Shown here: positions 61,707-64,000 of the stretch, one piece after another
Layout: each line of letters begins with the position of its first letter
Numbering within the stretch: position 1 is the first letter of the stretch
DNA from: Nitrospirota bacterium
GTDB lineage: Bacteria > Nitrospirota > Thermodesulfovibrionia > Thermodesulfovibrionales > Dissulfurispiraceae
NCBI GenBank assembly: GCA_016936655.1
Contig: JAFGXL010000025.1
Span: 1 to 64,000, forward strand
Reading direction: 5' to 3'
Length of the DNA stretch: 64,000 nt
Translations under genes and position numbers: made by a program
The notes under the pieces: model-generated
Databases searched by the model: none
What the model saw: the letters and a program-made list of their open reading frames with translations, nothing else
Told to the model about the DNA's origin: nothing

Positions 61707-61735
61707 TTGACAAATCAGTTATATGAAGGTACTAT
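61707..61735 (+). promoter_or_regulatory. Sigma-70-type promoter of the pilin gene
   Basis: Perfect TTGACA (61707-61712), 17-bp spacer and TACTAT (61730-61735). The leader to the pilin ATG is about 75 bases and carries AAGGAGGAG just before the start. No sigma-54 pattern was found here, unlike pilin genes in some other bacteria. Confidence 0.65.
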
Positions 61736-61816: not shown

Positions 61817-62362
61817 ATGAAGACGCTTTCGAATGTCATAAGGAGTCAGAGAGGTTTTACGCTGGTTGAGCTCGCTATAGTGCTTGTTATAATCGGAATA
61901 ATACTCGGCGCAGTTCTCAAAGGGCAGGACCTTATCGAGAATGCAAACGCAAAGAAGATAGCAAACATACCGAGCCAGTGGGAAGTGCCTATATGGGCAT
62001 ACTATGACAGAAACGGCGGATTCCCTGGCGACAGCGCTAAGGATGGTGCGATAGACAGCCATGCATTACTCGAGACAGCGCTTGACAACGCAGGCCTTGG
62101 TCGTCCGCAGGCTACTGTAAATGGCGTTACTGTTGCCATCTCAAATATCAATGCATGCGCAGCAGCAAATCGCAATGTGATGCTACTTACAAATGTGCCT
62201 CTCATGGCTGCGAAACAGCTTGACAGCAATGTTGACGGAGCTGAAGATGCTACAAAGGGCAGGGTAAGGAACTGCGGAGCAGCAGGCACCACAGCGGCAG
62301 CTGCTTGGGGAACAACAGACCCTACGAATATAACCTACTTATTTGACAAGACTATTCCATAG
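61817..62362 (+). CDS. Type IV pilin, MSHA-like
   Basis: 181 residues. Prepilin leader of 13 residues ending QRG, cleaved before Phe14 (FTLVELAIVLVIIGI), with Glu5 of the mature protein. A long hydrophobic helix, then a soluble domain with Ala, Asn and Thr-rich, low-complexity parts and two cysteines (NACAAAN and RNCGAAG) that may form a disulfide. A single pilin gene without minor pilins is seen. AAGGAGG precedes the ATG. Followed by a strong terminator. Confidence 0.93.
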   Translation: MKTLSNVIRSQRGFTLVELAIVLVIIGIILGAVLKGQDLIENANAKKIANIPSQWEVPIWAYYDRNGGFPGDSAKDGAIDSHALLETALDNAGLGRPQATVNGVTVAISNINACAAANRNVMLLTNVPLMAAKQLDSNVDGAEDATKGRVRNCGAAGTTAAAAWGTTDPTNITYLFDKTIP

Positions 62363-62385
62363 GTTGATACAGTCTGAAGATATGC

Positions 62386-62417
62386 AGAGGGGGATGATGA
62401 ATCCCCCTCTTTTTTTT
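62386..62417 (+). terminator. Rho-independent terminator of the pilin gene
   Basis: Perfect 10-bp stem AGAGGGGGAT / ATCCCCCTCT around GATGA, then TTTTTTT. It includes the start codons and the purine-rich ribosome-binding region of the next gene. Confidence 0.85.
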
Positions 62418-64000
62418 AAGCATTCTTTGTTATGGCTGCTCGGCCTTATGTTCTGCGTAGCAGCATCATTCAGCAGCCAGTATCTGAGTGCTGATCTTTT
62501 AACTCCGTATGAATTTTTCTTTCTTGGTCTGCTTGTGATCTTCATCTCTGTTGCGCTTTTCAGGCAGGCGAGTGCAGGGCATTTATGCATTCCTTTGCTG
62601 CTGCTCCCGATCATTGTTTTCATCATTTTAAGGATTGCGCCTGTTTTTTTCAGTCCTGTGCTCAATCTTCACTCAGCACTCTCAAAAACAGCAGGATTGT
62701 TGATTGGCGCGTTCTTTTTTCTGAGTCTTCATCAGGCAGGATTCAGCGCAGCTGACAGGCGCAGGATCATGGTGATGATTTTTCTGTCCGGAGTTGTCCA
62801 GTCATTTATAGGGGCTGGCCAGTTTTTCTTGCCTGGACTTGATCTTTCTCCTTTACTAATGAAATTCAAGGGCACAGCTTATGGCAGCTTTCAGCAGCCC
62901 AATCTTATGGCTTCATGGCTCGCCACATGTATAGTTATATCGCTCTATCTGACACTGAATGACTGGATTGATTCATTCAGTAGAATGCGTAGAATGATTT
63001 TTATAGCCCTTACAGCAGCACCATGTTTTGTGCTGCCGCTCACAGGTTCTCGCACAGGCCTTCTGGGGTTGGTTGTCGGCATGTCTCTGATATGGTTATC
63101 AAGAAAAGAGCTGGTCAGACAAAAGGCGAGGCATCTGCAGATATGGCTATGCATACTCATAATCTCGTTCTCGTTAGGGGTGGTTTCCTCGTATATTGTA
63201 AAAGGCGAATCCAGCCTGATATACAAAACAGCCAAAACCAGACTGAATGACATGGCAGGCAGGTCTGTGCTCTATAGTGTAGGTATAGATATGTTTCTGG
63301 ACTCTCCTGCTGCCGGGCATGGCATAGGAGACTTCAGCAGCCTCTATCCATTGTATGAAACACGCAAATTCAAGGACAATCTGGATGACAGCAAGAGGAT
63401 GTACGGCTCGCTTCATCCTCATAATGAGTTGATATATCAGCTGGCAGAATCTGGAATTATTGGCACTGTGGGCCTTTTTTTTGTTTCAGGCTGTTTTGTC
63501 TTTTATCTGCTCAGGCTCGGCATCAAAACAGCTGCAATGTTTATCGGCCTGCTCTCTCCACTTATAATTCATTTAATGCTGGAATACCCTTTTTACCAGT
63601 CTCTTCCTCATTATGCTCTTTTTATTGTACTGCTCTATCTGCTGTCATCACAATTCCGAAATCGCATATGTTCAGTAAACAGCAAATTTACACAGAGTAT
63701 GCTTCGAATCATCATAATCACAGCAGCTATTCTGTCTGTTGTATTTGTATCATCAACGCTATACAGTTACATGAAGATGGCAGAGCATGTAAGGCTGAAA
63801 GCGCGGGCCGGTGTTGTGCAGATAAAGCTGCTTGATGGCGGTCTGAAAAATCCGTATCTTGCAAAATACGCGTTGAGGTTAAAAATGGCAGTTTTGCTCG
63901 ATTATGCACTCACAAAATATGATAAAAAGATGCTCTTAGCAGTTTCGCAGTGGGCGCTTGATGAGACCCGTAAGGAGCCGCTTTCTGTCTATTATGAAAT
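62394..64000 (+). CDS. O-antigen ligase / PglL-like membrane glycosyltransferase (3' end outside window)
   Basis: At least 535 residues with about ten to eleven membrane helices; the reading frame is open to the window edge. A large periplasmic loop includes LHPHNELIYQLAESGIIG, the Wzy/WaaL/PglL signature, after an Arg-containing segment LTGSRTGLLGL. Its place after the pilin gene favours a pilin glycosylation (PglL/PilO) role, but LPS O-antigen ligase is possible. Start is ATG 62394 or 62397; both lie in the pilin terminator. A later TTG (62427) is a third candidate. Confidence 0.85.
   Translation, partial: MMNPPLFFKHSLLWLLGLMFCVAASFSSQYLSADLLTPYEFFFLGLLVIFISVALFRQASAGHLCIPLLLLPIIVFIILRIAPVFFSPVLNLHSALSKTAGLLIGAFFFLSLHQAGFSAADRRRIMVMIFLSGVVQSFIGAGQFFLPGLDLSPLLMKFKGTAYGSFQQPNLMASWLATCIVISLYLTLNDWIDSFSRMRRMIFIALTAAPCFVLPLTGSRTGLLGLVVGMSLIWLSRKELVRQKARHLQIWLCILIISFSLGVVSSYIVKGESSLIYKTAKTRLNDMAGRSVLYSVGIDMFLDSPAAGHGIGDFSSLYPLYETRKFKDNLDDSKRMYGSLHPHNELIYQLAESGIIGTVGLFFVSGCFVFYLLRLGIKTAAMFIGLLSPLIIHLMLEYPFYQSLPHYALFIVLLYLLSSQFRNRICSVNSKFTQSMLRIIIITAAILSVVFVSSTLYSYMKMAEHVRLKARAGVVQIKLLDGGLKNPYLAKYALRLKMAVLLDYALTKYDKKMLLAVSQWALDETRKEPLSVYYE

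Follow-up and report, generated by a model that had tools for sequence, protein, structure and literature searches.

In Pseudomonas aeruginosa, the pilA gene is followed by a terminator and then by one of the helper genes tfpO, tfpY or tfpZ, and the terminator in these cassettes has been proposed to set the level of the helper by read-through (PMC11841053). For tfpY, changes to the U-stretch raised the amount of helper protein, and partial termination was tested (PMC11841053). The literature on this species already contains the general idea of a helper gene held in check by the terminator of the pilin gene to which it is coupled (PMC11841053). A second precedent is provided by riboswitches with dual expression platforms, in which one hairpin ends transcription or else sequesters the downstream ribosome-binding site (Barrick and Breaker 2007, PMC2258182). 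In these platforms the ribosome-binding site lies on the 3' side of a terminator in the 5'-UTR, and control is exerted by a ligand.

The locus described here lies at the end of the window (the whole 64,000-nt stretch of DNA that was analysed). A type IV pilin gene (PF07963), a terminator and a codirectional Wzy_C ligase gene follow one another, which is the layout of a pilin-accessory cassette. The features are as follows.

61707..61735, + strand: predicted pilin promoter, TTGACA-17-TACTAT, agreeing with the consensus at 10 of 12 positions (the sister species has TTGACA-17-TAGTAT at the corresponding alignment position)
61817..62362, + strand: type IV pilin-like gene, 181 aa, with Shine-Dalgarno (SD) sequence AAGGAGG and stop codon TAG at 62360-62362; PF07963 at 34.3 bits, TIGR02532
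62386..62410, + strand: terminator hairpin AGAGGGGGAT-GATGA-ATCCCCCTCT, 10 pairs (6 G-C, 4 A-T) and a 5-nt loop, GATGA
62386..62393, + strand: AGAGGGGG, the 5' arm of the stem and putative SD of the ligase
62397..62399, + strand: preferred ligase start ATG, 6 nt past GAGG (alternative, ATG 62394)
62410..62417, + strand: T8 tract, beginning at the last stem base; end of Leu5 plus Phe6-Phe7 in the ligase
62397..64000, + strand: Wzy_C/PglL-like ligase gene, 576 aa, continuing beyond the end of the window

The ligase exceeds the cut-offs for both Wzy_C and Wzy_C_2 (PF04932, 61.2 bits against 31.7; PF11846, 59.1 bits against 28.5). In these domains, and in having a type IV pilin neighbour, it resembles the PglL/TfpO-type O-oligosaccharyltransferases and the Wzy_C O-antigen ligases; unlike the PglL/TfpO-type enzymes, it matches the PglL_A motif (PF15864) at 22.9 bits, under the curated cut-off of 25. 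As in the P. aeruginosa cassettes, a pilin gene and an intrinsic terminator precede a same-strand helper, and the tfpO helper is also a pilin glycosyltransferase (PMC11841053). In P. aeruginosa, however, the terminator is described as lying between the genes, whereas here it contains the SD, the AUG and the opening codons of the helper. The locus differs from the riboswitch platforms in having the SD on the 5' side, the AUG in the loop, a coding U-tract and an intergenic position, and no aptamer was found; matches to Rfam at the junction were all sub-threshold, with none above the gathering score. What is new, as read from the sequence, is that the SD, the AUG and the U-tract each serve as part of both the predicted terminator and the 5' end of the ligase gene. 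No description of this exact layout was found in a literature search with thin coverage of subscription journals.

The stem begins 23 nt after the pilin stop codon. A G+C-rich stem with an immediate U-tract, as expected of an intrinsic (Rho-independent) terminator, is present at 62386-62417, and this hairpin was ranked first among terminators between 61000 and 64000 in a scan for promoters and terminators. In isolation, the hairpin has a folding energy of -18.6 kcal/mol, and the region 62363-62460 folds with z = -3.5 relative to shuffled sequences. When the junction was shuffled 5000 times with dinucleotides preserved, a terminator of this strength never appeared, and a terminator of any kind appeared in only 23 shuffles. 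The initial annotation, made from the sequence, had proposed that a hairpin and T-run hold both ATG 62394 and ATG 62397 together with the region of the ribosome-binding site, and that the T-run encodes the first Phe residues of the ligase. Sequence, folding and shuffles bear out the former, and the latter is confirmed by the reading of CTT TTT TTT (62409-62417) as Leu-Phe-Phe. Since the T8 tract is coding, slippage of RNA polymerase could shift the frame in part of any read-through RNAs.

The ligase reading frame is open from within the pilin gene and continuous through the hairpin, and offers six candidate starts: TTG 62364, ATG 62382, ATG 62394, ATG 62397, TTG 62427 and ATG 62448. The last four had been listed in the initial annotation and are indeed in frame; it had missed TTG 62364, 1 nt past the pilin stop, and ATG 62382, 4 nt before the stem. 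Pairing with an anti-SD sequence that was assumed (CACCUCCUUU), not taken from the 16S gene of the genome, is -10.4 and -11.0 kcal/mol for ATG 62394 and ATG 62397, close to the -11.2 kcal/mol of the pilin's own SD. For ATG 62382 and TTG 62364 it is very weak (-1.4 and -1.8 kcal/mol), and TTG 62427 and ATG 62448 give +0.4 and -1.7 kcal/mol. The SD is in the 5' arm and the ATG in the stem-loop, placing the ribosome-binding site of the downstream gene within the terminator stem. ATG 62397 is preferred over ATG 62394 because of its spacing from GAGG, and in a protein alignment Met62397 lines up with the first residues of the ligases of relatives. Both the pairing and the placement of SD and ATG support the earlier proposal that the ligase start lies inside the hairpin; of the six candidate starts, those in the hairpin alone have a strong ribosome-binding site. 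Opening the start region would be costly, at about 21.5 kcal/mol for ATG 62397 versus 9.6 kcal/mol for the pilin start.

Relatives had been suggested as a check on the junction, and the layout proves to be shared by a sister species (G001, the sole other species of the genus compared) and by a second lineage. In G001, the 25 nt of the hairpin and the seven T's that follow are identical (32/32), while identity is 80.2% in the pilin coding sequence (85% in the protein), 68% in the 5' intergenic region and 80.7% over the first 83 ligase bases past the T-run. Differences between the two ligase genes fall at codon positions 1, 2 and 3 in the numbers 1, 5 and 10, a small count that nevertheless fits coding DNA.

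The second lineage comprises G051 and G133, which belong to one genus in another family of the same order and share the layout, although their hairpins differ in sequence from the present one. The pilin stop of G051 is followed by AAACTT and then AGGGGAGGCGTATGCCTCCCTTTCTT, with the hairpin AGGGGAGGC-GTAT-GCCTCCCTT. The G133 junction reads GGGAGGCTTATGCCTCCCTTTTTT, and its stem, GGGAGGC-TTAT-GCCTCCC followed by TTTTTT, carries the ATG in the loop; a further ATG past the T-run lacks an SD. The spacing from SD to ATG is short in both (3 nt). In all four genomes (the present one, G001, G051 and G133), strong SDs are found at the hairpin ATGs only. A tree in which the present ligase forms one clade with those of G051 and G133 was rejected (log-likelihood lower by 65.9, p-AU 1.5e-6). 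This suggests that the embedded start arose more than once, although an independent origin is likely rather than certain, since the present ligase is on a long branch and its position in the tree is unsure.

Translation could instead begin at TTG 62364 or ATG 62382 by reinitiation after the pilin stop, in which case the start would not be hidden; the translating ribosome would unwind the hairpin, so that the stem would limit transcription only. Consistent with such a start, the ligase frame of both species in the genus is already open within the pilin gene, TTG-ATG comes immediately behind the pilin stop in G001, and conservation between the two species is 87% over the 23 nt that separate stop and stem. 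Against this, SD pairing of the upstream codons is just -1.8 to +0.1 kcal/mol, and two of the six codons from TTG 62364 to ATG 62382 carry amino-acid changes between the two species. In G051, a TAG directly before the stem shuts the ligase frame, so an upstream start is impossible there; the earliest start codon available is the one in the hairpin, and the next is at +98, inside TM1, so that on this sequence the hairpin ATG is the sole usable start codon of the G051 ligase. Initiation upstream of the hairpin is accordingly regarded as improbable, and a start within the hairpin is preferred.

A scan for promoters, restricted to sigma-70-like sites, found none on the + strand between 61894 and 62751, and none at the pilin-ligase junctions of the present genome, G001, G051 and G133. 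Just past the window there is a second pilin-like gene, directly 3' of the ligase (contig C11 of genome G000, ~64214-64810; 7214-7811 in L061), with TTGACA-17-TACGAT right after the ligase stop and a 14-bp terminator. The ligase thus sits between two pilin genes, and it alone lacks a promoter-like site.

These observations bear on the possibility that the ligase gene is transcribed from a promoter of its own and translated from a codon past the T-run, TTG 62427 or ATG 62448, the open frame through the hairpin being accidental. This was the outcome that the initial annotation had named as contradicting its proposal, and it finds no support in either the promoter scan or the weak SDs, which at the G001 counterparts are -3.0 and -2.3 kcal/mol. 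Starting at either codon would also drop residues preceding TM1 that are present in relatives, and G051 lacks any such start. TTG 62427 is, however, conserved in G001, and 11 of the 90 gene-trailing terminators in the genome survey described below are crossed by some open frame that continues for 120 codons or more. Moreover, other relatives do start their ligases past a terminator. Pilin and ligase genes are adjacent in G001, G005, G018, G023, G027, G051 and G133, and in G018, G023, G027 and G005 the ligase start lies beyond the stem that follows the pilin gene, +85 to +137 relative to the stop codon of the pilin. In G023 and G027 (L044 and L045), the ligase ATG comes 8 nt after the end of a TATAAT, which suggests that in these relatives the ligase has an independent promoter and a leaderless message. 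For the present locus, an independent promoter with a start past the T-run is judged very improbable.

Junctions differ further among relatives. In G014 an extra gene lies between pilin and ligase, and the same gene precedes the ligase in G030, where no pilin is visible on the contig. The ligases of G208-G210 (L105-L111; another family of the same class) stand next to pilin-like genes in tandem groups of two or three, and no hairpin was found before them. Given this variety, the embedded start would be one of several arrangements. A scan of genome contigs yielded two distant ligases, both without such a junction. In L048 (G005), a perfect 16-bp stem (ATTTAAAAGGGGAGGC...) after the ligase-linked pilin runs up to an ATG that does not share the ligase frame. 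The literal hairpin sequence was found, across 176 genomes of the order, just in the two species of the genus. The form GGGAGGC...ATGCCTCCCTTTT occurs in three genomes and holds a ligase start only in G133; the ATG in the G023 match is out of the ligase frame, and the G027 match is the terminator of a different pilin.

Terminator stems stabilize the 3' ends of RNAs in general. The hairpin might mainly protect the 3' end of the pilin mRNA in this way, with the overlap with the ligase start being compact packing of no regulatory value. Stems of the form GGGAGGC...GCCTCCC are common at the ends of pilin genes in the order, with or without a ligase close behind, which is in keeping with such a role. 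That arms, loop and T-run are conserved without a single change, and that the layout recurs in a second lineage, fits an additional function at the ligase start, but pairing combined with coding constraint could produce the same conservation, and two sequences cannot separate these constraints. Protection of the pilin mRNA as the main role is considered rather unlikely, and the hairpin is preferentially read as acting on both genes.

The background of terminators was surveyed over 1.15 Mb of the 1.99-Mb genome, in which 132 were found, 90 of them trailing genes. An SD-like stretch and a start codon were present in 23 of the 132, and just two of these 23 lead into long frames, the present one and another that has a credible, better start shortly past its hairpin. 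Such stretches are frequent because the G-rich 5' arm of a terminator resembles an SD. The combination of SD and start within a terminator is not rare as a string; it is rare as the start of a real gene. The SD of the ligase may itself be a by-product of the G-rich arm. A candidate for a second embedded start in this genome, the GTG of L124, was rejected, as an ATG 19 nt past the hairpin opens a protein with an apparent signal peptide.

Taken together, the hairpin is likely to do double duty: it would end pilin transcripts as an intrinsic terminator and also be the site where translation of the ligase begins, giving a low level of ligase that tracks pilin transcription. Most transcripts from the pilin promoter would end at the T-tract, and a minority would read through into the ligase gene, which could probably be expressed only when the pilin terminator fails. 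In the read-through RNA, the SD in the 5' arm and the AUG in the loop would again be locked in the stem, and inefficient initiation is expected from the cost of opening it. The outcome would be a scarce membrane ligase whose level follows pilin transcription. In its transcriptional part this scheme agrees with the tfpY result from P. aeruginosa (PMC11841053), and in its translational part with the dual platforms of riboswitches (PMC2258182), in inverted geometry. The ligase probably decorates the neighbouring pilin, as its adjacency and domain content suggest. The sequence thus lends partial support to the initial annotation's idea of a pilin-modifying enzyme made only by read-through and kept at a low, pilin-coupled level. 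From the sequence, then, we infer the efficiency of termination, read-through as the sole source of the ligase, its low level and its action on pilin. It is possible, though rather doubtful, that the element is a dual gate on transcription and translation that evolved on two or more occasions where pilin and ligase genes adjoin in the order, perhaps sensing the distance between ribosome and polymerase in the pilin gene.

If the favoured reading is correct, a single 32-nt element would set the 3' end of the pilin mRNA, the transcription of the ligase and its translation together, and would be a compact means of keeping a membrane enzyme much scarcer than the abundant substrate on which it acts. 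It would also illustrate how the G-rich, SD-like arm of a terminator can be put to use in starting translation, and would be a warning that automated gene prediction may set start codons wrongly where genes adjoin in this way.
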